Positions 5,566-47,734 of a DNA stretch of 64,000 nt are shown piece after piece. Both the position numbers and the translations under genes were made by a program. Each line of letters opens with the position of its first letter. Position 1 is the stretch's first letter. Source of the DNA: Owenia fusiformis (taxonomy: Eukaryota > Annelida > Polychaeta > Sabellida > Oweniidae); the NCBI GenBank assembly GCA_903813345.2, contig CAIIXF020000009.1, positions 15,215,759 to 15,279,758 on the forward strand. The letters are read 5' to 3'. Below the pieces are notes generated by a model. The model was not told where the DNA came from, ran no database searches, and worked only from the letters and a program-made list of their open reading frames with translations.

Positions 5566-8500
5566 GCTTCTGGAAGCAACTCACCATTCTCAGAGGAGGA
5601 TATTGAGATGATTGGTCACCTTGTAACAGCCATGACATCCGATGAAATCAAAGATCAATTACCAGCTGGGGAAGTCGCCAAGAAAGCACTCAAATTTTTA
5701 GGAAAACGTTGTTTGAAAAAAGATGTTTCAACAATTGTTGTTGACAAAATCAAAGATTCAGATGCTTATGGGTAAGAAATATGTAACACTTCATTTGTGT
5801 ATAGTATGCAAGTATATTTTTCACAATATTTTTTTACATTTTATTGATTTAAACTTTAAATTTAGGAATAAAAATTAAGATACAGTACTTCATCTATAGT
5901 CATTTTTAGCATGAAATTTCAAGATGAAGAATAATTTAAGAAAATATGATTTGTTAAATGGTATTTGAGGGATTTGCTTATTTGTAAAGTACAGTACTTA
6001 CTTTTTCTTGGTAAACATGTATTGAACAACTGTCTGTAGTTTGATTCCATGAATATTATTGGTTTTAACACTCAGGAGTAAATGATATGAAACGTTTCTG
6101 AACAAAGATATGGGCAATTGTTGAGTGCAATTTTCCAAAGCCACCAAATAGCACAGAATTTCTTATGAATTTTCATTGCAGATTTCACAAATAAAGGTTA
6201 TTTCATGTTTTATTTAGTCCACTAAGTGAGATGACAGAAGCAGATGTTGAAGAGTTGGAGGATGTCGTCGCAAATTTGCCAAAGTCTGATCTTGACGAAA
6301 TCCCTGATGTAAGTAAATATTTACTATAAGGCATCAAGGTAAAGTGTATGGAGATTGACCAGTTGTAATTGTAATACTACAGGACAAGCTGGCTAGACTG
6401 TATGGATGATTGATTGACCATGTAATACAGGACAAGCTGGCTAGACTGTATGAACGATTGATTGACCATGTAATACAGGACAAGCTGGCTAGACTGTATG
6501 AACGATTGATTGACCATGTAATACAGGATAAGCTGGTTAGACTGTTTGGACCATTGATTGACCATGTAATACAGGATAAGCTGGCTAGACTGTATGAACG
6601 ATTGATTGACCATGTAATACAGGATAAGCTGGCTAGACTGTATGAACGATTGATTGACCATGTAATACAGGATAAGCTGGCTAGACTGTATGGACGATTG
6701 ATTGACCATGTAATACAGGACAAGCTGGCTAGACTGTATGGATGATTGATTGACCATGTAATACAGGATAAGCTGGCTAGACTGTATGAACGATTGATTG
6801 ACCATGTAATACAGGACAAGCTGGCTAGACTGTATGGATGATTGATTGACCATGTAATACAGGATAAGCTGGCTAGACTGTATGGACGATTGATTGACCA
6901 TGTAATACAGGACAAGCTGGCTAGACTGTATGGACGATTGACCATGTAATACAGGACAAGCTGGCTAGACTGTATGGACGATTGATTGACCATGCAATAC
7001 AGGACAAGCTGGCTAGACTGTATGGACCATTGATTGACCATGTAATACAGGATAAGCGGATAGACTGTATGGACGATTGATTGACCATGTAATACAGGAC
7101 AAGCTGGCTAGACTGTATGGACGATTGATTGACCATGTAATACAGGACAAGCTGGCTAGACTGTATGAACGATTGATTGACCATGTAATACAGAACAAGC
7201 TGGCTAGACTGGACAATTGATTGACCATGTAATACAGGACAAGCTGGCTAGACTGTATGAACGATTGATTGACCATGTAATACAGGACAAGCTGGCTAGA
7301 CTGTATGGATGATTGATTGACCATGTAATACAGGACAAGCTGGCTAGACTGTATGGACGATTGATTGACCATGTAATACAGGACAAGCTGGCTAGACTGT
7401 ATGGACGATTGATTGACCATGTAATACAGGACAAGCCGGCTAGACTGTATGGACGATTGATTGACCATGTAATACAGGACAAGCTGGCTAGACTGTATGG
7501 ATGATTGATTGACCATGTAATACAGGACAAGCTGGCTAGACTGTATGGACGATTGATTGACCATGTAATACAGGACAAGCTGGCTAGACTGTATGGACGA
7601 TTGATTGACCATGTAATACAGGACAAGCCGGCTAGACTGTATGGACGATTGATTGACCATGTAATACAGGACAAGCTGGCTAGACTGTATGGATGATTGA
7701 TTGACCATGTAATACAAGACAAGCTGGCTAGACTGTATGGATGATTGATTGACCATGTAATACAGGACAAGCTGGCTAGACTGTATGGATGATTGATTGA
7801 CCATGTAATACAGGACAAGCTGGCTAGACTGTATGGATGATTGATTGACCATGTAATACAGGACAAGCTGGCTAGACTGTATGGACGATTGATTGACCAT
7901 GTAATACAGGACAAGCTGGCTAGACTGTATGGACGATTGATTGACCATGTAATACAGGACAAGCCGGCTAGACTGTATGGACGATTGATTGACCATGTAA
8001 TACAGGACAAGCTGGCTAGACTGTATGGATGATTGATTGACCATGTAATACAGGACAAGCTGGCTAGACTGTATGGACGATTGATTGACCATGTAATACA
8101 GGACAAGCCGGCTAGACTGTATGGACGATTGATTGACCATGTAATACAGGACAAGCTGGCTAGACTGTATGGATGATTGATTGACCATGTAATACAGGAC
8201 AAGCCGGCTAGACTGTATGGATGATTGATTGACCATGTAATACATGACAAGCTGGCTAGACTGTATGGACGATTGACCATGTAATACAGGATAAGCTGGC
8301 TAGACTGTATGGACGATTGATTGACCATGTAATACATGACAAGCTGGCTAGACTGTATGGATGATTGATTGACCATGTAATACAGGACAAGCTGGCTAGA
8401 CTGTATGGACGATTGATTGACCATGTCATACATGACAAGCTGGCTAGACTGTATGGATGATTGATTGACCATGTAATACAGGATAAGCTGGCTAGACTGT

Positions 8501-11500
8501 ATGGACGATTGATTGACCATGTAATACAGGACAAGCTGGCTAGACTATGGACGATTGATTGACCATGTAATACAGGACAAGCCGGCTAGACTGTATGAAC
8601 GATTGATTGACCATGTAATACAGGATAAGCTGGCTAGACTGTATGGATGATTGACCATGTAATACATGACAAGCTGGCTAGACTGTATGGATGATTGATT
8701 GACCATGTAATACAGGACAAGCTGGCTAGACTGTATGAACGATTGATTGACCATGTAATACAGGATAAGCTGGCTAGACTGTATGGACGATTGACCATGT
8801 AATACATGACAAGCTGGCTAGACTGTATGGATGATTGATTGACCATGTAATACAGGATAAGCTGGCTAGACTGTATGGACGATTGACCATGTAATACATG
8901 ACAAGCTGGCTAGACTGTATGGATGATTGATTGACCATGTAATACAGGACAAGCTGGCTAGACTGTATGGATGATTGATTGACCATGTAATACAGGACAA
9001 GCTGGCTAGACTGTATGAACGATTGATTGACCATGTAATACAGGATAAGCTGGCTAGACTGTATGGACGATTGACCATGTAATACATGACAAGCTGGCTA
9101 GACTGTATGGATGATTGATTGACCATGTAATACAGGATAAGCTGGCTAGACTGTATGGACGATTGACCATGTAATACATGACAAGCTGGCTAGACTGTAT
9201 GGATGATTGATTGACCATGTAATACAGGACAAGCTGGCTAGACTGTATGAACGATTGATTGACCATGTAATACAGGACAAGCTGGCTAGACTGTATGGAT
9301 GATTGATTGACCATGTAATACAGGATAAGCTGGCTAGACTGTATGGACGATTGATTGACCATGTAATACAGGACAAGCTGGCTAGACTGTATGGACGATT
9401 GACCATGTAATACATGACAAGCTGGCTAGACTGTATGGATGATTGATTGACCATGTAATACAGGATAAGCTGGCTAGACTGTATGGACGATTGATTGACC
9501 ATGTAATACAGGACAAGCTGGCTAGACTGTATGGACGATTGACCATGTAATACATGACAAGCTGGCTAGACTGTATGGATGATTGATTGACCATGTAATA
9601 CAGGATAAGCTGGCTAGACTGTATGGACGATTCATTGACCATGTAATACAGGACAAGCTGGCTAGACTGTATGGATGATTTATTGACCATGTAATACAGG
9701 ATAAGCTGGCTAGACTGTATGGACGATTGATTGACCATGTAATACAGGACAAGCTGGCTAGACTGTATGGACGATTGACCATGTAATACATGACAAGCTG
9801 GCTAGACTGTATGGATGATTGATTGACCATGTAATACAGGATAAGCTGGCTAGACTGTATGGACGATTGATTGACCATGTAATACAGGACAAGCTGGCTA
9901 GACTGTATGGACGATTGACCATGTAATACATGACAAGCTGGCTAGACTGTATGGATGATTGATTGACCATGTAATACAGGATAAGCTGGCTAGACTGTAT
10001 GGACGATTCATTGACCATGTAATACAGGACAAGCTGGCTAGACTGTATGGATGATTGATTGACCATGTTATACAGGATAAGCTGGCTAGACTGAATGGAC
10101 GATTGATTGACCATGTAATACAGGACAAGCTGGCTAGACTGTATGGACGATTGACCATGTAATACATGACAAGCTGGCTAGACTGTATGGATGATTGATT
10201 GACCATGTAATACAGGATAAGCTGGCTAGACTGTATGGACGATTCATTGACCATGTAATACAGGACAAGCTGGCTAGACTGTATGGATGATTGATTGACC
10301 ATGTAATACAGGATAAGCTGGCTAGACTGTATGGATGATTGATTGACCATGTAATACAGGACAAGCTGGCTAGACTGTATGGACGATTGACCATGTAATA
10401 CAGGACAAGCTGGCTAGACTGTATGGACGATTGATTGACCATGCAATACAGGACAAGCTGGCTAGACTGTATGGACCATTGATTGACCATGTAATACAGG
10501 ATAAGCGGATAGACTGTATGGACGATTGATTGACCATGTAATACAGGATAAGCGGATAGACTGTATGGACGATTGATTGGCCATGTAATACAGGACAAGC
10601 TGGCTAGACTGTATGGACGATTGATTGACCATGTAATACAGGATAAGCAGATAGACTGTATGGACGATTGATTGGCCATGTAATACAGGACAAGCTGGCT
10701 AGACTGTATGGATGATTGATTGACCATGTAATACAGGATAAGCTGGCTAGACTGTATGGACGATTGATTGACCATGTAATACAGGATAAGCTGGCTAGAC
10801 TGTATGGACGATTGACCATGTAATACAGGACAAGCTGGCTAGACTGTATGGACCATTGATTGACCATGTAATACAGGATAAGCGGATAGACTGTATGGAC
10901 GATTGATTGACCATGTAATACAGGATAAGCGGATAGACTGTATGGACGATTGATTGGCCATGTAATACAGGACAAGCCGGCTAGACTGTATGGATGATTG
11001 ATTGACCATGTAATACAGGATAAGCTGATAGACTGTATGAACGATTGATTGACCATGTAATACAGGACAAGCTGGCTAGACTGTATGGATGATTGATTGA
11101 CCATGTAATACAGGATAAGCTGGCTAGACTGTATGGACGATTGATTGACCATGTAATACAGGACAAGCTGGCTAGACTGTATGGACGATTGACCATGTAA
11201 TACATGACAAGCTGGCTAGACTGTATGGACGATTGACCATGTAATACATGACAAGCTGGCTAGACTGTATGGATGATTGATTGACCATGTAATACAGGAT
11301 AAGCTGGCTAGACTGTATGGACGATTCATTGACCATGTAATACAGGACAAGCTGGCTAGACTGTATGAACGATTGATTGACCATGTAATACAGGACAAGC
11401 TGGCTAGACTGTATGGACGATTGATTGACCATGTAATACAGGACAAGCTGGCTAGACTGTATGGACGATTGATTGACCATGTAATACAGGATAAGCAGAT

Positions 11501-14500
11501 AGAATGTATGGACGATTGATTGACCATGTAATACAGGAAGCGGATAGACTGTATGGACGATTGATTGACCATGTAATACAGGAATAGCTGGCTAGACTGT
11601 ATGGACGATTGATTGACCATGTAATACAGGACAAGCTGGCTAGACTGTATGGATGATTGATTGACCATGTAATACAGGACAAGCTGGCTAGACTGTATGG
11701 ACGATTGATTGACCATGTAATACAGGACAACCTGGCTAGACTGTATGGACGATTGATTGACCATGTAATACAGGACAAGCTGGCTAGACTGTATGAACGA
11801 TTGATTGACCATGTAATACAGGACAAGCTGGCTAGACTGTATGGATGATTGATTGACCATGTAATACAGGATAAGCAGATAGAATGTATGGACGATTGAT
11901 TGACCATGTAATACAGGATAAGCAGATAGAATGTATGGACGATTGATTGACCATGTAATACAGGACAAGCTGGCTAGACTGTATGGATGATTGATTGACC
12001 ATGTAATACAGGACAAGCTGGCTAGACTGTATGGATGATTCATTGACCATGTAATACAAGATAAGCTGGCTAGACTGTATGGATGATTGATTGACCATGT
12101 AATACAGGACAAGCTGGCTAGACTGTGTGAACGATTGATTGACCATGTAATACAGGACAAGCTGGCTAGACTGTATGGACGATTGATTGACCATGTAATA
12201 CAAGACAAGCTGGCTAGACTGTATGGATGATTGATTGACCATGCAATACAGGACAAGCTGGCTAGACTGCATGGACGATTGATTGACCATGTAATACAGG
12301 ATAAGCAGATAGAATGTATGGACATTGATTGACCATGTAATACAGGATAAGCTGGCTAGACTGTATGGACGATTCATTGACCATGTAATACAGGATAAGC
12401 TGGCTAGACTGTATGGACGATTCATTGACCATGTAATACATGACAAGCTGGCTAGACTGTATGGATCATTGATTGACCATGTAATACAGGATAAGCTGGC
12501 TAGACTGTATGGACGATTCATTGACCATGTAATACAGGATAAGCGGATAGAATGTGTGGTAGGGCTGGAACGGAATCTGAACAGATTTTGGAACTTTAGC
12601 CTTCAGACTTTGAACCAACTTAAACAAGTGAACTTTTCAATATTTCTATATTAATTAAATTATTAATTTCGTATCATTCCAGTTCTCTATTGTGAGTTGT
12701 CAAGTGTTCTTTAAAGAAATTGATTAATTCCAAAAATATCGGAACTTGAGAAGGCAGTTTAAGACTCCATTTTCAAAGGTAGAATTGGGTGATTTGGACA
12801 ATAATTTCCTTCCGTGCCAGCCGTACTGTATAGGAGATACATGGACCAACTATAATTGTCACAGTATGTTAGCTGGCTAGAATGTGTGGGGGATACATTG
12901 ACCAGCTATAATTGTTATGTAACAGGACAAACTGGCTAGACTGTGTGGGGGATACATTGACCAGCTAGAGCCTAGTGATTCTGAAGAGGCTGAGGCTCGT
13001 GTCTTAAAGGAACGTGACATCTCAGATGAGGACCGCAATTCCTGTAAGGACCGGGTGAAGGCATTTAAGCAAAGGTGCCAGGAGGCAATTGTTGGAACAA
13101 TCTCTGTTGATCCATCACGTAGACGACGCAGAGGTAAAAAGATTATTTCATCCCCCTCTGTCAACCTGTATATGTTCATTCACAGAATATTTCATAAACA
13201 CCAGCACCCAAATTCTATTATAGTATGTAGTTGACATTTTTATTATTTTTATAAAATATACACAAATAAAAAAAGAGAAACTAACTAATCAATTTTTACC
13301 AAGGCTCCCATGAATTGGGCAGTGCCCTTGGGCTTGGACCATTCATGCGACCTCAGTCCCGCCTTCATTAACTTATATGACAAATCATCCAGGCAACTGC
13401 CAAGTTGTCAAATGATGTGATTGTGATTGCTATCTATGACATCAGTCACATATTACTATAAACAAACAAATAATCACTACATCACAAATCTCTGTTGATT
13501 CTATATTAATATGTGATGTCATTAACATGTTACTTAACCAACAAGAAAACAAGCATTTAGTTTGTTTATTATGGTTCTCCATGATCTTTTCATAAGAAGT
13601 GGATCAATTTTCTGTATAGCATATGTCTCCGCATATTAGCCTTCATATTTTTCTAGTGAAATTACATTTATTATTTGAATACCACATTTGGTCAAAAAGT
13701 ATGTTACAAGGGGCGATCAACAAATAACGCAAATAGAGCCCTATCTCAGAAACTAATTGGAGTTAGAACACCAAATTTGATACGTAGTATCACCAAATAT
13801 TCATTATTCTTGCAACAAAATCTGAGGCACAAATATTACTTTATGTCAGAGTTACGGTTGCCATAGAAACCTGTAGTATGGGCACCTGAAGCAGGCCGTG
13901 AATCAAAACAATAAGGTATTGAACGTCTGTCCAAATGACTTTGAAAGACACTGTTAAGTCATACAAATTTGATGTTATTTGGGTGTAAATCATTTCTGAA
14001 AAGTTTCTGTTAATTGATGTGATCTACTTTTAATTGTTATTTCATAATGCCTACCCAACAATAGCTTTGTCATTAGGCTATACATGTCAATACCCAACGA
14101 TAAGATGACAGAAACCACAGGCAGTAGGGAAATCAAAGTCAAGTCAGCCATACTGAAAAATGGTAGAATTGAAAACTTCAGGTCATCAGGCTTCCATAGA
14201 AGACAGAGAGAACTGATATAATGCTGTATTTTGAATGAAATATCACTGCAAAAAACTTTATGAGATGCTGAATAAGTCTTGGGTAATGAAAATGGACTAA
14301 GCAATGTCTACAGATGGTACAGAACGATTTCTGAAAAACCAAGAAGATCTGCTGAGGATGCTTCTCGTACAGGTGCTCTAAAAACAACACACACATAGCA
14401 GAGATGATTAAAGAAGTAGAGCAGCTGGTTATGGTTGATAGGACTGTCACTACTTAACATGAACTGGGCAAGAGTTCAGTCTAAAAATGATTGTTAAAAA

Positions 14501-17500
14501 ACTGTGACATCATATATTTGAGGTGTTTCAGGTGCCCACGACTTGGGTTACTGTATGCTAAATCCTTATTGTTACTTAATATCCAAGACCTACTTCAGGT
14601 ACCCATACCATGGGTTACTATCATAACTGTTACTTTGGCATATATCAATGTTTGTGCCCTAAACTTTCTGGAAATATGAATGAATGTTTGGTGATACTAT
14701 GTATCAAGTTTAGTGTACTAACTCCAATTAGTTTCTGAGATAGGGCTCTATTTGCGTTATTTGTTGATCACCCCTTGTACTTGAATTAATTGAAATAATT
14801 TTGGTTGCCTTTGTTCCATTGCCCCATCCTTGCCTATGGTAACTCTCTCTTGGCCTTTGACCTCTTTATTATTTGCTTTTTTTGAAAATCATCCTGTTAT
14901 TGGTGCTGATATTAAGAAAGGGCATAATTCAATAACCAGAAAAAATAGCATGCTATAAAGGTCCTTATACATACATGTATTATCAGAAAAGAAAATCCAG
15001 TGATTATTAATGGAAAGATTGTCATAGCAAGACACTTTATTATTACCCCCACACTCCAATGCATGCATACTATTCCTTTATAGATTATTATCCCATCGAA
15101 CAAAGTTCAGAGGGATAATAGGGAATGCCTCCGTCCATCTGTCTGTCCATACGTACGTCCGGGCAATAACTCAAATACCATTGGCCCGATTTTGTTCGTA
15201 TTTTGTATACATATACCGTAGAAGTTCTGTTTGAAAGGCGATTTTCAAAATGGCTGCTTATTTAAAAATGGTGGCCATTTTTAGTGCCGATTTTACAGTA
15301 ATTTAGGTGCAATATGTAAAACTTTAATAGCAATATGTTTTAAATGTAAAAAAATTATATAGGACATTAATAAAGCTAGAAATGTAGATATAAAAGAAGC
15401 ACATGGCAGCCATCTTGAAAAATGGCGGCCTTTACTCGTTATTTTACGATTTTTGCTGTAACTCGAAAAGTAGTGGAGCAATTTTTCATATTTGGTATGT
15501 GAATACTTAAAGCATGGCACACTGTCTATTGACACTTTTGGTAGAAGACGGCCATTTTGAAAAATGGCCACCATTTTAACGTATTTACTATAACTCGAAA
15601 AGTAGTGGAGCGATTTTGTTCATATTTTGTATGTGAATACTATAAGCATGGCACACTGTCTAATGACACTTTTGGTAGAAAGTAGCCATTTTGAAAAATG
15701 GCTGCCACTTTTGCTATATACTTTGTTTGTAAAAATACCAGCCACGGCTGTTCGATGGGATTTGCTACGCTTTGGCGTTGTTGTTCTCTAGTTAACATTC
15801 TATTGTATACTACATGTATGTAATTTGTAAATTCTACATTGAGAGACACCGTTAATGTTTAAACAAATTAATGGCATAAAATCTATTGGTAAAAACTTTA
15901 TTCTTGCTGTTTGTAGATGCAAGTACCTGGACATGTCCTGATATCAAACAGATGGGGGAGGGTATAACAGAATCATCTGATGAGGAGCTTAAAGATATCT
16001 TAACTGCTGTATTGGAAGAGTGTCTGCCTGACCTAGGTTCTATAAATGGATGGTCCGAGGCACAGAGATCACTGCTCCTTGAAAAGATTGAAGCAGTAAG
16101 TGTACAAGTTAAACATATGAATATCAGAAAGCACAATATTTATCATAAGATGAATGAAGAAAAAACTCTGCTTATAAAGAAATTGAAACCCACGAGATTA
16201 TGATTAATTGGAAACATTTATGGGATCTCAGGTCCATCCATTTTATTCTCTATCAAGCTCAAGGTTCACTCTATTTTCTACCTTATCTCAAACTCCATAC
16301 TCCAATCTGTTCAACACCTTAGCTCAAAGTCCACTCTATTTAGCACCTGAACTCAAATTCAACTCTACTCAGCATGTTAACTCAAAGTTCACTCTATCAA
16401 GCACCTTAGCCCAAAGTCCACTCTACTCAGCATCCTAGCTTAATGTCCACTCTATCAGGCACCTTAGCCCAAAGTCCACTTTATCAAGCACCTTAGCCCA
16501 AAGTCCACTCTACTCAGCATCCTAGCTCAATGTCCACTCTATCAAGCACCTTAGCCAAAAGTCCACTTTATCAAGCACCTTAGCCCAAAGTCAACTCTAC
16601 TCGGCATCCTAGCTCAAAAGTCCACTCTATCAAGCACCTTAGCCCAAAGTCAACTCTACTCAGCATCCTAGCTCAAAGTCCACTCTATCAAGCACCTTAG
16701 CCCAAAGTCAACTCTACTCAGCATCCTAGCTCAATGTCCACTCTATCAAACACCTTAGCCCAGAGTCCACTCTATCAGGGACCTTAGCCCAAGTCAACTT
16801 TTTCAGCACCATAGCTCAAAGTCCACATTAACTAACACTGTAGCTCAAAGGTCACTATCCAGCATCTTAGCTCAAAGTTCACTCTCTACAGCACCTTAGT
16901 TTCAAGTCAACTTTTTCAGCACTTAAGCTCCAAGTCCACTCTTTCCAACACCTCACTGCACCTTTGATATGAACTTTGTTCCAATTAATATTTTCAGGAT
17001 CTAGCTAGTGACGACATCTGTGGTTTAGGTGAGTTACAACTTCTATCACTGAACCAACTATCCTTGGCCTTAACGACTGACCATATTGCATGCCTGGACT
17101 TGACAAGTGATGATGTTGCAAGTCGACTTGGTGGCCTCTCGGGTTGGAGCACTGATCAAGTGAGTGTTATTGGGTTCCGTTTTTGTGAGAGTAATAGCAC
17201 ATTTAATGTGAATCTATAGAATATAAGTCGCATAAAGATAGTTGTATACTGCTAGAGGTGTCAAGTATTAACCGGTTAACCGCCGATAATGCCTTGACCG
17301 GTCTGCGTTTTTATGGGTGGTTAGTTGACCGTGTATAATTCTGTTATTTCCCGCGCTTATATTGCATGTTAATCTGTTTGGTTTTAAAGTGTCAGTTTCA
17401 CGTAAGCTACTCATACATGTCATAAGTCCATTAACTCCTTACAAACATCCAATCAGCAACTTTAATCCCTGCCACATTGCTTTCCCACACTTACTTTGCA

Positions 17501-32800: not shown

Positions 32801-35800
32801 ATTTTCACACAAACCAAATGTGACATGGAGGCTGCCATCTTGGTTTTAGTACTGTACTGAACGAAATGTTGTATTTATGGGAATTTCCCAGGGAATTTTA
32901 GATGTTTTAGGGTAAAAATGTTTGTGTTTGCTTTTTTTACTTTTGGTCAAACTGTACACGCACGCGGACGCAAAACCAATAATCCAAGTCCTTTGGCCTA
33001 AGTAGTGAAACAACTACCTGTTAAAAAAAGTTAAGCGCGAGGCCTGGTGTAGAAAAATAATCAAAAATATTCTGAAAAAATTTTTTAATTTTTTACAAAC
33101 ATTTTGCTTCTTACCTCTTTAATATCCCAGATGCGAGTAGAAATAATCTTGATTTACGTCATTAAAAATTCACAATTCAGTCAAACTGATGTCATATTTG
33201 GAATCTACATGTAAAATTACATTTGGATATGTGGTTTTGAAAAGAGTTTATCAACTTTGAAAATTTAATTTTCTTTGAAAATGTGACTTCTAGGTCGGGG
33301 AGATTCCCCATAGACCCCATGTTGTAAAACCACAAAGAGTGAAATATCCTTTCTAGTGTTGGGCAGATAATATTTTCTTTTACTGGACATATTTTTTTAA
33401 TTTGTATGACTATCAGATACATTAGGGTAATATGAAAAGTGAAGCACTAAAATTGATGCATATTCAAGTTTAAGGGAATTTTGTAATACCCTGCCATGTT
33501 AATTCCCCCAAATCAGCCACCTGGTGGCGAAACTGGTAACTACCTACTCGCATCTAAGTAATTCCGCCTCTTACCTTACGTTTGAACCCCAAAAATCTTT
33601 ATACTTTTAATTGCCATTCTTAGGGGGCCATAACTGCATGATTAGAACATGTAGAGTTCTTATCTGTTATTTTGAGAATCATAGGTCCTCTAGAATTCAT
33701 CCTATCAATGCCTGAATCTTGCGAAAAAAAAACTGGCAGGTTAGCATTACTGAAAAGTGGTAGGGGAGGTCTAAACCCCAACAGATTTCGCTAAAAGATT
33801 TTTTGCAAAACTCCATCTTGATCCGGAAAAAAAGTTGAAAAGTGAAACACCCTGCTGTATTGTTTCCTCTCTCTCTGGATCAGTAACTAACATGACTGTG
33901 TTGATCTTATTTCCAGGTCCGCCACATGAAATCATCTGGCCGTGGAGACAAAGTCGCTGTCTGTATTGGAACTGTTACTGATGATATCAGAATTCTAGAG
34001 ATCCCAAAACTAAAGGTATTATACTATATCAATAACAGGCCTTCCCAGATCTCTTCTTTCTAGTTACAGTGATGTGAAGACAAACATAGAATTAATATTA
34101 GTTCTCTAAAAATTTATATGAAAAGGCACACAATAACATCAAGGTGATTCAAAATTTAAGTGGTGGGTTGATTTTACTTTGAGCATGTGCCTAGTAGCTA
34201 TTCTACTCATTGCAAAAGAAAAATGCGCTGGCTTTCACGAGATGCTTGAATATTGTCAAGCACATTGCTGTCAAGAAAGCTAAAATGACTGCAGTATAAA
34301 GGCTTTAAATTATCTATAAGTTAGTATAACCAGCATAATGTATACAAAATGTTGAAATATTTATTTTTTTACAAGAATTGTTAGATATTGTAGTGCTGGA
34401 CGCAAAAGAAAGAATTTGATTCTATGATGAGAAGGAATTACCGTTTGAGGTTAACTATGAAACCAAATGCGGCACTTTCTGAGAATCCTTGTTTTCACAT
34501 TGCCACTGAAATGTTGAGTTACATTTGAGGGGTAGTTTTAGGTACCGTTTAGTCAGTCTATCGTTACCCTTTCCAGTAGTTGAATTTTAAAAGTCTCAGT
34601 TAGTTCAATTACTGTATTTGTATTTAATTTGGCGCTACTTAATTTGGTGATGTTTTGCTTTTGAGCCTATTAATTGGCGTCTATTTAATTTGGCAGTTTT
34701 TCAAGTGTCCCAGACATCCTCCTGTCTTACCTAATTCGAGTCAGTGTTGTTGATGAACAATTTTTTCAGTATTTCCTGTTGTTTATACACTTCTTCAATA
34801 GTTCTTAATTCTTTCAATTTAAATGGCCTGGCCATCTTGGTATATATATTTCTTTTATTGACAATTGTATCAAAACATGACACATTAGTCTATGTACAAA
34901 CTAAACTGTCTTGACTCAAGACAATACTACACTATTAACTAAATGCTAGACTACATTTATAATTTCACTATGTACATGTAATTTAAAATCATTTGCATGA
35001 GTTTACAGGCTCTTTATAAAAACTTGATGCATAAAAGATGATAAAAAATGTATTAGCAGTGTAGCACAATTATTGCAGTTTATTCTAAATTTTGAAAAGA
35101 CTTGTAAATATATTTGCCAATATGCCTTTGAACAGTAATATTTTGCGAAGACAATAGCATTTTAAAATTTGTTTCATTGATTAGAAAATTGGGTCCAAAT
35201 ATTTCTTTCATTTTTTCAAAGAGGACTCTCCTTTGTGCATCATGTTTTTTATAGGGCTGCCATCGAACTCAAATGTCAGTGTCGACAGTCGAACTCTGCT
35301 GTCGAAAATATTGTCGACAATCGAACTTTCCAGGGAGAAAAAATCATCGGGAAGTAATTGCCTAATATTGTTACTAAATGCCAAGTTAATAGAATATTAT
35401 AGACGAAAATGGGACAAATACCTGCAATGTTTCGACCGGGATTTATTTCGACTGCTCGGGCGAAATCTCGTACAACGTCTCGCAAGAGAGAAGAGAAGTC
35501 ATGAAGGGAACTTCCGGGTGAATTTATTTTTTGAAAATGAAATGAATGTGAACAATATTTCCGCAGAATACGCGCACATAACACGTTGAAATGTGTATTG
35601 AAATGTATTGGGGCCATTTGGATATTTTCAAGTAAGTATTGATATCGTTTGCTGTCGACATGACGGGAATTTTTGTCGACTTCGTTGTCGAACTTGCATT
35701 TTGACTGACAAGTCGACGTTCCGACTAATGATGGCAGCCCTAGTTTTTTACAATCAATAAAAAAATGTTTTTCATCTTCAACAGATGTACAAGTTAAGCA

Positions 35801-38800
35801 AAGTCTATCATTTGTTGGAATTGGTTTAGGTTTAGAATACCGGCCTGTTTCAATTCGAAGTTTGTGTGAGCTTAGTCGAAACCTGGCTATTGATTGTCTA
35901 TATTTTCTATTATCAAGTTTTGTATAAGTTTCTATGCAAAAGTCATTCTTAAAAGTGTTATATGTACGAAGTATAGGAAAGTTATAATTCATATCTGTTC
36001 TCCATATATCAACAAAGTTACTTTTCAAGGTTTTTTCAACAATAAGTGGTACTATTTCTATATTATCTAAATTATCTTGATCCTCCCAGTATTTTGACAT
36101 ATTAACTTTGTGTAAAATATCATTAACTCTTGAAGCCCAAGTTTGAAAACCAAGTTCATGCATTTCTTTTTCATAGGAGTATGCTTTATGTAGTATGTTT
36201 GTTGGGGGGAGTTTGAGAATTCTTGTCCAGTATTTTATTAATGTAGTCTCAAATTTTATTGAGAGAGGATAACGCCCCAAGTCTCCATAAATTGCAGGGC
36301 TGGCAGTTTGTCTTTTCACACCAAGAATTGATTTCATGAATCTTAAATGCACCAGTTCAAGATTATCTATATGTTTTTTTGTTTGCCATATCTCACACCC
36401 ATATGTTAGAATAGGTGTTACTAGAGTGTCAAAGAGATGTAAAGCAATATTGACTGGGACATCACCAAATTTCTTATACTGGCTTTTTATTTTGAAAATT
36501 GCCTTTCTTGATTTGTCAATTAAATATTTTGTATTTTTGTCAGATTGATTATCAGTAGTTTGGATACACCCAAGATATTTATATTCAGTAACACATTCTA
36601 TTTTTTGACCATTGAAGTTAAAGTATACATCTGTTTTCTTTGTATTATATAAGAGAACTTTTGTTTTTATTGTATTAACTATCATTCTGTAACTTTTGCA
36701 GAAATTAAATAGAGCATCGAGTTGTTTTTGAAGGCCTTCAGCAGAAGTTGATAAGTTTTAAATCATCTGCCCATAAAAAATGGTTAATCATCTCATCCTG
36801 AATCTGTACACCAGTCACTAGGTAGAAAATCAGTCAGGTCATCTAAGAAGTGATTAAATAAATAGGTGCTGAGCACACTACCTTGCATAATTCCTACCTC
36901 TGTATTAAATTTTGATGTTATACCAGATCTTAGTTTGAGACAAGCCTTTGATTTTGAATACATGCTCTTTATTATAGTAAAAATTTTACTAGAGGGGTGT
37001 ATTCCAGATTTGCATAATTTGAAAAGTAAGACGTCACGATCGATATAGTCAAACGCTTTTTTAAAGTCAATTACACATGTATAAAGAATTTTCTTTTGTC
37101 TTTTGAATTTACTTTTTATTGTTTGAAAAATAAAAATATTGTCTGTGGTTCTACTGTTTTTCTTATAGGCACCTTGGAATGGGTCTTGTAAATTAATTGT
37201 CTCAGCATTAAAGACTAATCTGTTATGGATCACTGAGTCAAAAACATTGCCTATGCAAGCTAACACATTAATGCCTCTATAATTATCTGGATTAAATTGA
37301 CTACCTTGTTTATAAATAGTGCTTAACATACCAATACTCCAGTTTTCAGGATAATCACCCTTATTAAAAATATAGTTAAAAAGTGTAGTCATTGGTACTA
37401 CCAAAGACTCACAGTTTTTTATTATGTCTGAGGGGTATCCATCAATTCCTGCTGATCGATTAGAGTTTATCTTTTTTAGGGCATTCATGACTTCTATAAT
37501 TTCTATGTTTTTATTTAGGATAGAATCTGATATGTTAAAATCCTTGTTTTCAGTTTGAGTATTATTTACGTAATCGTTTGTATATGAAATCATGTATTTC
37601 TGAATTTCATTATCAAAATACTCTATGTTTGGGGGTAGAGATAATTTTTTAAAATATTCAAGAAGTTGTTCTGGGGGGATTGGGATGTCATTAAATGTCT
37701 TACCCGGAGTGCTATTAATTAAGTTCCAGTATTTTGTAGGGTTATTTGATTTATATTCTAGAAGTGATTTACAAAGATTGCTTGAGTATTTCCTTTTTTC
37801 ACATTGTTTTACTCTATGGTATTCTTTAGTTAATAATTCTATATCATCGCTCTTTGGGTTTTCCTTAGTTATTTTATGAACTTTAGCCTTTAAATGTTTA
37901 CATCTGTCACTGAACCATAGATAAACAGGAAACTTACTTGTACGAGATTTAGTGGTTTTTGTTTCAAAAATTCCTGTTGATGCATAACCCACCACTTCTA
38001 GTAATTTTGAAGTTAGGTCATCAGATGTAAGATTTGCTATATCAGAAAAGAAGTCATCAAGTAAAATTTCGCTATTTGTATCTTCAAGTTTTGATTTGAA
38101 TTTAAACTTTTTATTTTTATCCCATTTAAAATATGTAAAGGGGTTAAGAATCTCATTTGTTTTGACTGATACTTCTTTTTGATTATTTAGTATGTCAAGT
38201 GAGAAATATAATGGTGCATGATCTGATTCTACCCTCAAGCTCATTATTTCAAAATCACTAAACAATGGAAATATGGAGGGTTGGGCTACAACATAGTCAA
38301 TAACTGTTTTACCGTTTTTATTACTTTCATCACTGTTTGATGAGTTTGTTTTTCTAGATTTTCCGTGGTATGTGAATTGACCAATTCCTTTGTCTTTGAA
38401 CATACGGCCATTGAGTATTCTCATGTCAGATGATTTACATAGCTCAAGGAAATCTCTACCGTGAGTCTGAGTGACTCCCCTCAGATTTTTGTCATTTGAT
38501 ACTCTTGGGATCTGTTTTATATATTAGTCATGTTGATTTGTACTATTTTGGTTGGTAAAAGGTAATTCACCATCTGAGCCTTCAATTTCATCATTAAAAT
38601 CGGCTAATTCAGCGGTACGCGAGTTCATGTCACCACACAAAATGACTTTTCCAATAGTTTGGTAATAAGCTATAGATTCTTCTAAGACATCAATATTGTT
38701 AGAACCAGCGAGACCATCGTATACTGATCCCTTGAAGGGTATGTATGCAAAACATATGAATATATGGCTTTCTGTCTTATAGAATTCTGATCTAATTTTT

Positions 38801-41800
38801 ATCCATATAAAAAAATCATGAGTTTGGGGCATTAATTCTACACCTCTTTTAAAAATATCATTTTTTACAAGAATAGCAAGTCCTCCTGAATAAACATTTA
38901 CATGGTTAGTGTTACAACGCGTTTTACGAGCTAAATTTATACATTCAAAACCTGCTAAAGTAAAAGTGTCATCAGGAGAAAGCCAGGTTTCACTAAGTAA
39001 ACAAATTGAATACTTGTTCATCAAATCAAAAAGATCACTACCATCATGTAATTTACCTGAAAGTCTATTTATGTTCCACACTAGAACTGAAAAAGTGTCA
39101 TGTGGATTTGTACACACTTTGTTTTCAAAAGATGGTTCATACTGGACGTTATTATTTGAATTGCACAGATTGTCATTGCTTAATGTATTTACATCATTCT
39201 GGTATCTTATAAATGGTGTAGAACAGTCTTCCTGTACTATTGTACTACACTGCTTTTTGTCTAAAATCTGGTCATTTTTAGACCCCTGTGAGGGTGGTTA
39301 TTCACTGATCTATTCCTGACAGTCTCAGCATAGCTTACAGGTATGTTGACTATTGACAGCATTGCATCAACAAGGCGGTTACGTCCAATGTTGTTGAAGT
39401 GTAGTCTGTCACTAAATAGCACATCCATGTTAGGTTCTTGCACTGTCGATTTGTTGAGATCATTTATGTTGATGAATCTGAAGCCTCTGTTCTGCGCAAA
39501 AATTTCCATATAGCTGGTCTCTTAGGGGCTCTGCTTTTGTGCAGGTGGGTTTACTGGGTGGTGTCATTGACTGTGGGAGAGAATTATTAAAGATGTCACA
39601 TCCCATATTTTGTAGCTTCTGTACTAGGACAGTGTTTTTTCTATGTTGTGTACTCAGATCTGCTTTCAGGCCTTGTATTGTAGTAATATGATGTTTCTCA
39701 TTTTGTTCGTAAAGTTCGAGTTTTGTTGATATGTCTCTTATCTCTTCATTATGAAGAAGTTTATTGGCAGTGGTATCATCCTCACGTTGCTTATCTGATG
39801 CATTTAGTCGAGACTGTAAGTCATTTAGTCTCGCATTCAGGTCAGAAAAGTGTTGGGTATATTTGGCATTGACTTCTTCTAGTTGTTTCTCCAGTGAAAT
39901 AACCCTTGAACGTAGCTTTTTGTTTTGGTTCTGTATCTCTAGATTGGGAGATGGGTTGGCAATGTTAGATGTTTTAGGGGGTTCTGATTTCTCTGATGTG
40001 GGAGGGGGATTGGCTTGGGTAGGTGTGATAGCACTAAGTAACAGTTCTCCTTCCTCTGGTTGAGAAGTAATTTGCTCATGTTGCTGAGGCTGTATTAGTT
40101 CGGGGTCCTGTTGTGTTTCTGGGATAGTTGTTGGTTGCAGAATTGACTGTGATATCCCTGGTTGTTCAACATCTGTTTGAGTGTTCTGTACAATGGTATG
40201 TGTATCCCTATTGAGGAAGAAAATTATGCTGTCTTCTCCAATATCAATGTCATTGGCTATATCAGTTGAGTTGGGTGTGTCTAACTCACTAAACATATCA
40301 TTTTGTGTTGAAGTTTCATAACCATTCGGTGTAGATGAAGATGTAGGGGCATTAAGGTGGTTAGGTGTTCCCAGTGATGCAATTGTACCTTTAATAAGGT
40401 AAAAATCATTTTCCCGCCAATCTTCAAGTTCTTCTCCACTGATTGTGATTACTCCAGAGTCACTAACATCCATGGATATGTAATCTTGTATTGATATCCG
40501 AGTACTATGTTCCAGACGTTTTGAGGTTGAGGTCATTCCTTTGTTCTTGTAGAATTGGGTGAATGCCTCAATCCATAGTAAGATTCTCTCAGTATAGAAC
40601 CCAAGGTTCTGGTAGTCATCATCAAGTTCTAATGTACCTGAGTTTTTGAGATCACGGTACTCTAAGTTCTCATGTAGGATTTCAGGATTTTTCTTTAGAG
40701 TCCTTATATTCTGTTTTCTTAGATTTCTCTTTTCCTTCCCTTTTATATCAGGGGATGAGAATGTCTTTGCACATGTGTGTTTAGGTCTTTCTATAATGCC
40801 ATTAGCCATAATTAAGATCAGCCTTAATATTTAGAGTACATTGTTAGTAGTTGTTAATCCTATAATCCTATAAGTGGCTATATACAACAACATGTATATT
40901 GTTGATAAACAAAGGTTTGTTTTGGCTGTTCCATTTGGTATATCTTTCTTATAACCGAAAATGCACCAAACGAAACACATGTCAAATTCTCTGGATTTTT
41001 GCGACTATTTGATTGAGCGATTTTTTTTTTAATTTGCCAGCTTGTTTCGTTATTAAAAATATATATTCATAGTAGTATTGGTAATAGTAGTTCACTCTTG
41101 CAATGTTATTGCAGGTATGCGCACTTCATGTGACTGAGAGAGCACGTGCTAGAATCCTTAAGAATGGAGGAGAACTGATCACTTTGGACCAGTTGGCACT
41201 GAAGGCACCCAAGGGACAAAACACAGTTCTTTTACAAGGTAATTCATTATCAATACTTGAGACAATACTTAAAACCTGGCATGGTTAAGAAAACATTGGT
41301 AGACCGTCCATTTTAAATGTTGCTTAATTTTGAATCTGTTTAAAGATGTCATTTTAAAAGCAAAAAAGGCTCCAAAACGTAATAAAATATGTAGTTTGGA
41401 TGTTCATTTATGTCTGTGGATTATATTTTATACCACAAACACTTATAAATACCTGAAATTTGCAATAAAAGTGCCCAAAAATTGTTGTTTCGAAATTCCC
41501 CATTTTTCCTGTATAGCGCTAGTCACGTGACCCTTACGCGTAGCAGTAGTATTACAGATATTACAGTACATATTTCAACATGTTCAATATGGCAAACATC
41601 AGCGATTCTGACTCCCGGGTTCTGGGAAATGGCTATATTTAAATCGGCGAGAGGGTGTTATTAAGGAGGACAATTTAAGGAGGGGAAATATGTCCAAGTA
41701 TGCCAGTAAAAGAGCAGAAATGGACTTTAGACAAGTACTATGACGGAGAATCAACTAAAAAAATGTGCGTTCTGGAATGAAGACCCGTTGCCATTGACTG

Positions 41801-46010: not shown

Positions 46011-47348
46011 TCTCAAATTCGTAAACTGGTAAAGAGAACGCGATTTACGAATACATGTATTTGGCGAAATTGTAGTTTACTTTTAAAATTCAAAAGATAG
46101 TCAATTAGTGGCTCGATTTTTATGAAATAAAGCATGTTGGAAATGGAATTCAATCTCTCAAAGATTATTTACCAAACAGAGCAATAATGAATACTTTTCA
46201 CAATTTATGCACAATGAGAAAATATGACTAAAGAACGGGAAAGAAAGGAAAGTTAATCAGCCTTCTTTAATCCCACTTGTCAACACTACGCGCTGGCGTT
46301 TTGGCGAGATGAAGTCGAACGAATGCAAAGGTAGTGGACGCCACAGTTCAACGATATCTTCCACCGCTTATTGGGGGAACAGTCATGAAACCGAAATCCC
46401 CGTAACCTTTCCTTAAGCGGTGGAAAATATCGTTGAAGCGTGATACCATGGGCTTTCTGAAATTCGTAAACTGGTAAAGAGAACGCGATTTACGAATACA
46501 TGTATTTGGCGAAATTGTAGTTTACTTTTAAAATTCAAAAGATAGTCAATTAGTGGCTCGATTTTTATGAAATAAAGCATGTTGGAAATGGAATTCAATC
46601 TCTCAAAGATTATTTACCAAACAGAGCAATAATGAATACTTTTCACAATTTATGCACAATGAGAAAATATGACTAAAGAACGGGAAAGAAAGGAAAGTTA
46701 ATCAGCCTTCTTTAATCCCACTTGTCAACACTACGCGCTGGCGTTTTGGCGAGATGAAGTCGAACGAATGCAAAGGTAGTGGACGCCACAGTTCAACGAT
46801 ATCTTCCACCGCTTATTGTGGGAACGGTCATGAAACCGATATCCCCGTAACCTTTCCTTAAGCGGTGGAAAATATCGTTGAAGCGTGATACCATGGGCTT
46901 TCTGAAATTCGTAAACTGGTAAAGAGAACGCGATTTACGAATACATGTATTTGGCGAAATTGTAGTTTACTTTTAAAATTCAAAAGATAGTCAATTAGTG
47001 GCTCGATTTTTATGAAATAAAGCATGTTGGAAATGGAATTCAATCTCTCAAAGATTATTTACCAAACAGAGCAATAATGAATACTTTTCACAATTTATGC
47101 ACAATGAGAAAATATGACTAAAGAACGGGAAAGAAAGGAAAGTTAATCAGCCTTCTTTAATCCCACTTGTCAACACTACGCGCTGGCGTTTTGGCGAGAT
47201 GAAGTCGAACGAATGCAAAGGTAGTGGACGCCACAGTTCAACGATATCTTCCACCGCTTATTGTGGGAACGGTCATGAAACCGATATCCCCGTAACCTTT
47301 CCCTAAGCGGTGGAAAATATCGTTGAAGCGTGATACCATGGGCTTTCT
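46011..47348. repeat. Three tandem copies of a 445-bp unit with an internal stem-loop
   Basis: Units start near 46013, 46458 and 46903 (AAATTCGTAAACTGGTAAAG) and are almost identical. Each ends with an inverted pair, TTCAACGATATCTTCCACCG...TTA and TAA...CGGTGGAAAATATCGTTGAA, that can form a stem of about 22 bp around a 50-bp loop. Very few changes separate copies, so the duplication is recent. Confidence 0.95.
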
Positions 47349-47734
47349 GGTTATACTGATCAGTGTAGATGCCATGATTTTAAAAAACAGTAAAACACCG
47401 AATTGTGACGTTTTTCAATCGGAAACATGGAATATACTTTTTAAGGTGTTGATGATCAATGTTATCTAATTTTATTTTCAAGTAGCAAGTCTACACAATA
47501 TTGGAGCAAGACTTCTTCCTTAATAATTAATGTTAAACGAACCGAAAAGATCCACTGACAGGTATAAACTTCTTTCAGATGATGTCATAAATTGATAGGC
47601 AAGTCACGAAACGAGTAAAACATATAATAATGTAAAGAAAAGAAAATGTTACTCTTGACTCAATTTGTCACTTGTCTTGCCGCCTCTTGGAATTATTTCT
47701 ACATCATTTGAATAAAACCGATCATTGTCATGCA

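Follow-up and report, generated by a model that had tools for sequence, protein, structure and literature searches.

An intronic minisatellite of 131 units in the annelid Owenia fusiformis, probably derived from the 3' splice-site segment of its host gene's own exon

How does an intron come to be filled with more than a hundred copies of a sequence that resembles the start of the next exon, and what would the splicing machinery make of them? The question is raised by a predicted gene of the annelid Owenia fusiformis, located in a window of 64,000 nucleotides (nt) on contig C9 (positions 15215759-15279758 of the contig, within a 498-Mb genome), where a 6617-nt intron consists mostly of a tandem array with a unit of 48 base pairs (bp). 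In our reading, which we consider probable, the array is a minisatellite of the "mirage" type known from amphioxus, originating by tandem duplication of the 3' splice-site segment of the host exon. The gene model is based on open frames, phases and splice dinucleotides, the use of its exons being predicted from sequence, and its five plus-strand exons, when joined, give 282 codons without a stop. The features around the array are the following:

6218-6308, + strand: coding exon preceding the array intron, 91 nt, phase 0 end, donor GTAAGT; its counterpart in a distant paralog also has 91 nt and like phases
6309-12925, + strand: array-bearing intron, 6617 nt, mostly array
6337-6382, + strand: left edge, partial older copy of the long type (GACCAGTTGTAATTGTAATACTACAG), similar to the exon-boundary copy and to the 59-mer, the long form of the unit
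6383-12559, + strand: main array, 131 units, 48-bp consensus with 44- and 47-bp variants and repeated multi-unit blocks
12560-12826, + strand: dispersed repeat, 267 nt, resembling a non-autonomous transposon, inside a long-type copy
12827-12864, + strand: right-hand part of the older copy split by the dispersed repeat, 38 nt, ending CACAG
12865-12925, + strand: older copy, 61 nt, near-identical to the true boundary, its final GTAACAG being the true acceptor
12926-12967, + strand: exon part homologous to the unit (DKLARLCGGYIDQL)
12926-13133, + strand: real exon 3' of the array intron, 208 nt, open frame, donor GTAAAA at 13134; its counterpart in the paralog has 202 nt and like phases

Regarding the relation between unit and exon, the consensus unit aligns with positions 12895-12967 at a local score of 33.5, well above chance, as 2000 dinucleotide shuffles reach at most 20.5 and 5722 other 73-nt windows of the stretch at most 18.5. 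For the 42 exonic nt by themselves the score is 26.0, the null maximum being 18.5 in 2000 shuffles. The similarity is also specific to the locus: the boundary copy (12865-12967), searched against the whole genome from nine first-look candidates, gives at least 82 matches, all of those listed lying at the array locus (C9 15222112-15228725), as the match counts of these genome searches are lower bounds. Among the matches listed, its best one within the array is 6354-6420, at the left edge, with 82% identity and an expectation value (E) of 1.7e-10. Moreover, the exact 13-mer of the junction occurs 66 times in the array and 13 times elsewhere, and a reversed control pattern gives 11. Taken with the layout of the paralog described below, the unit-exon score above shuffles and the restriction of the matches to the locus bear out the preliminary description in its central point, that boundary sequence rather than random intron DNA was amplified. 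Thus, provided that the acceptor is indeed at 12926, the tandem units span an exon-intron boundary of their host.

The copy number of about 130 that had been proposed is likewise confirmed, as Tandem Repeats Finder (TRF) detects a 48-bp unit in 130.6 copies at 6378-12559 and the parse of individual units gives 131 over 6.2 kb: 100 of 48 bp, 17 of 44, ten of 47, two of 46, one of 45 and a final partial unit of 22 nt, with a spurious anchor at 7212, within an irregular 44-nt unit, excluded from the counts. Mean pairwise identity among the 100 exact 48-bp units is 96%, and only 44 distinct sequences are found among the 131. Multi-unit blocks are themselves repeated, comprising up to seven units, as in the seven-unit block present at 9324 and again at 9700. 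The peptide DKLARLYGRLIDHVIQ that had been ascribed to the units is encoded by only 22 of the 131, 35 units reading DKLARLYG*LIDHVIQ. The minus strand of the array is open over long stretches, such as 7207-8544 (446 amino acids), apparently because the reverse unit contains no stops.

The array does not directly abut the boundary, as had been supposed, but ends at 12559, and the 366 nt between it and the exon are made up of the 267-nt dispersed repeat, the 38-nt older copy and the 61-nt older copy. At the other end, positions 6309-6383 score 21.5 against the 59-mer, compared to a null maximum of 18.5 in 1000. When the flanks of the dispersed repeat are joined and 7 nt are removed as an assumed target duplication, a 53-nt copy of the 59-bp boundary unit is restored, with a score of 27.0 and a null maximum of 11.5 in 2000. 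Long-type copies are therefore present at both edges, and together with the restored empty site they suggest that the tract was probably once continuous with the exon. Gaps of 8 and 3 nt distinguish the 48-bp unit from the 59-bp one; the edge copies have diverged from the unit while the centre is homogenised, a pattern that also characterizes mirages. The long form is thus probably the older one, and a shortened copy would have expanded between two old edges. Regarding the dispersed repeat itself, a query of 12556-12840 gives at least 40 scored matches in the genome, including itself, among 51 candidates on many contigs; its ends form an inverted repeat of 15 out of 17 positions, whose score of 13 is not beyond chance, since the maximum of 1000 shuffles is 14.

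In the proposed sequence of events, a segment of about 59 bp across the 3' splice site, comprising about 17 intronic and 42 exonic nt, would have been tandemly duplicated on the intronic flank of the real exon. One copy would then have lost a net 11 nt, mostly from its intronic half, giving the 48-bp unit, which may have multiplied to 131 homogenised copies, groups of several units being duplicated at a time, before the dispersed repeat was inserted near the right end. Slippage or unequal exchange would be the mechanism, and both this and the order of the events are what we infer from the present state of the tract.

A distant paralog at C9:31532175-31533607 gives an outside view of the same exon pair. 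It was found using the two downstream exons as query (E 0.275, the other two matches being the gene itself), while the three array-side exons returned only self-matches (three of three) and the paralog used as query returned only itself (two of two), a search that also located its upstream exons. Its two exons measure 91 and 202 nt, compared to 91 and 208 nt here, with identical phases. When both exons are taken together the protein alignment scores 31, against a maximum of 22 in 1000 shuffles, while the scores of the single exons are reached by five and 25 of 1000 shuffles. The intron of the paralog matching the array intron has 220 nt and contains no array, and this intron with the following exon start is unlike the unit, since 334 of 500 shuffles attain its score of 11.5. 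This layout, with 91- and 202-nt exons in the same phases around an array-free intron, supports the exon as the source of the repeat and favours 12926 as the predicted start of the exon.

The opposite direction of descent has nevertheless to be considered, in which the repeat came first and an intronic minisatellite would have reached as far as the exon. In one variant the splice site would have shifted into the final copy, an exonisation adding 13 codons; in the other it would sit downstream at 12965, leaving the exon outside the array. The following observations speak for such a history or against the exon as source. Taken by themselves, the intronic 22 nt show no significant similarity to the unit, 27% of 2000 shuffles reaching their score of 7.0; the similarity therefore stems from the exonic part and the common CAG junction. 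An in-frame alternative acceptor, CAG/CTAGAG, is present at 12965, its CAG (12962-12964) in phase 0 and the resulting exon open, and its use would leave the repeat wholly intronic. In addition, protein alignments score equally well or better when the 13 residues are dropped in all five comparisons: within the gene, 38 without them against 38 with them and 46 against 35, or, under a second scheme, 34.5 against 31.5 and 48 against 36, and with the paralog exon 15 against 12. An array reaching almost to an exon on the intron side only can also be found in the paralog, where degenerate copies of a 23-bp repeat extend to no more than 3 nt from the likely acceptor (score 18.5, reached by three of 500 shuffles).

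However, an exon starting at 12965 would have only 169 nt, far from the 202 nt of the paralog, while a start at 12926 gives the nearby 208 nt with phases alike; the alternative acceptor is also purine-rich, the pyrimidine content upstream being 0.35, compared to 0.53 at 12926. Between these two starts the protein alignments do not discriminate, and only exon length and phase, together with pyrimidine content, favour 12926 over 12965. Acceptor use at 12926 is inferred from these features, and it is on account of the alternative acceptor and the five protein comparisons that we leave a small share of probability to the repeat having come first, which we regard as unlikely. The 23-bp array of the paralog is a side observation in its own right: it occupies 989-1419 with 18.9 copies in a paralog intron (L032 989-1498), does not resemble the preceding exon (score reached by 182 of 500 shuffles) and could be called an intron-side half-mirage.

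Concerning the host gene, its remaining predicted exons are:

5566-5771, + strand: upstream coding exon, open frame, acceptor TTTGTAG, donor GTAAGA
15917-16095, + strand: next coding exon, acceptor TTTGTAG, donor GTAAGT
16998-17159, + strand: following coding exon, acceptor TTTTCAG, donor GTGAGT

Compared to Pfam, the gene gives no match above the gathering score, while the paralog matches Stereocilin (PF21058) with E 0.0089 and 15.6 bits, under the cut-off of 26.6. The mesothelin family model is silent in the genome, with its controls silent too, and the same holds for the search with the GFP family. As a guess, the host protein may be mesothelin/stereocilin-like; the surface protein supposed in the preliminary description is likewise conjectural. 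A further array, of a 29-bp unit in 22.7 copies, occupies 16301-16953 in the intron directly before the exon at 16998; it is not derived from either of the adjacent exons, its score being reached by 21% of 500 shuffles for the next exon and 97% for the previous one.

Whether or not the units descend from the exon, their acceptor-like junctions raise the possibility that the array supplies decoy 3' splice sites, by which correct splicing would be lowered or tuned and expression would be set by the length of the array. This would be compatible with a mirage origin. The preliminary description had claimed a junction kept in each unit and a flood of about 130 decoys, yet AG precedes 112 of the 131 junctions, AT 16 and AA three; many units but not all therefore keep the signal, as in mirages. 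The sequence TTGAC, which we take to be a branch-point-like motif, stands before 127 of the 131 junctions, with 13 nt between its A and the junction. The pyrimidine content upstream of the junctions is low, being 0.47 in 119 units, and equals the 0.53 of the true site in the other 12, while the four other acceptors of the gene have 0.88, 0.76, 0.76 and 0.65. In seven of the 100 48-mers the G of the AG differs, which ties it as fifth most variable of the 48 sites, so no protection of the AG from change is visible. Reading from the array acceptors to the exon donor, a stop is met in all 131 cases, while the real exon is open; decoy use would thus bring premature stops from every unit. The true site is probably chosen because it alone adjoins a real downstream donor and enters an open exon. 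Moreover, the amphioxus mirages reportedly seem not to disturb regular splicing (PMC3087553). A regulatory role of the decoys is, in consequence, judged improbable.

The units had also been credited with feeding frame-neutral coding repeats into the protein, which is not supported, since 70 of the 131 contain a stop codon when read from the first base, 31 differ from 48 bp and none stays open to the donor. A stricter version would have the units spliced, singly or serially, as 39-nt frame-neutral micro-exons (CAG/...CAT/GTAATA), each adding one of a variable number of 13-residue helices. In fact, 56 of the 131 units combine an AG, a donor-like GTAAT, a length divisible by three and the absence of a stop, and the other 75 fail at least one of these. 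The donor CAT/GTAATA is weak, lacking the G at +5 present in four of the gene's five donors and the G at -1 present in two of five, and no sign of selection is seen. Such micro-exons are therefore very improbable; if real, they would make the array a tunable generator of protein repeats from an intron minisatellite derived from the gene's own exon. The earlier functional inference mostly fails, and the array would probably be a passive passenger, removed together with the intron.

Other elements were noted in the window and in the genome. A 13-bp unit in 26.1 copies (98% matches, L010 6401-6739) ends about 50 nt before an open frame, a possible upstream exon, which is followed by a long run of N; this array is not exon-derived, as its score is reached by 28% of shuffles. 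Within the window, LINE-like (long interspersed nuclear element) open frames on the minus strand at 35279-40830 comprise an endonuclease/reverse-transcriptase-like frame and an upstream one, and long Ty3/gypsy-like open frames (L011 1394-7551) lie at a distance of about 12-19 kb upstream of its start, both identified by appearance. Three copies of a 445-bp unit, with 99% matches, occupy 46011-47349 of the window. A COX1 search of the genome gives no match and hence no mitochondrial contig. Finally, a cluster of three above-cut-off matches to the annelid erythrocruorin linker family PF16915 is located at C6:27033687-27048438, a family confined, to our knowledge, to annelids.

The array places a boundary-derived minisatellite in an animal other than amphioxus, and its units far outnumber those of the globin cases; the process may thus occur generally among animals. 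Two natural tests are also offered, one of the way in which about 110 AG sites resembling the true acceptor are ignored by the spliceosome, the other of the route to new introns that has been proposed for such boundary duplications.

The preliminary description held that minisatellites usually lack a copied splice acceptor, which overlooks the published mirages of amphioxus (PMC3087553, PMC3902484). The name was given to minisatellites in the amphioxus Adh3 gene and the globin genes BflGb6 and BflGb9, which are of variable length and were proposed as a route to new introns (PMC3087553), and troponin C and PGBD5 are further cases (PMC3902484). As in the present array, an intron-exon boundary is tandemly duplicated, splice signals are kept by many units, though not by all, and the edge copies escape homogenisation (both papers). 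In BflGb6, too, the 3' end of an intron and the 5' part of the next exon are repeated (PMC3087553), with three and six units of 150-160 bp in two haplotypes, in contrast to the 131 units and 6.2 kb found here. The Adh3 units measure 10-72 bp. Here, unlike the amphioxus mirages, the tract is split by a repeat insertion.

A minisatellite in a human interferon-induced transcript (Turri et al. 1995), reportedly the IFI6 gene with a 12-bp unit, is said, by its title, to carry a donor in actual use, while it is the acceptor that is copied here. The ABCA7 variable number tandem repeat (PMC5954066) likewise lies in an intron and, according to its title, affects splicing. Among boundary-spanning minisatellites, only the amphioxus globin and PGBD5 cases were found in the literature, subscription papers being mostly outside the coverage. 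Splicing and length variation have been studied in amphioxus mirages, while the present array is known from the sequence of one assembly; stage transcriptomes of O. fusiformis have been described (PMC9977687). The amphioxus hosts are cephalochordates and this one is an annelid, outside the distribution that the amphioxus papers describe; the kind of element is already known, and its taxon may be new.

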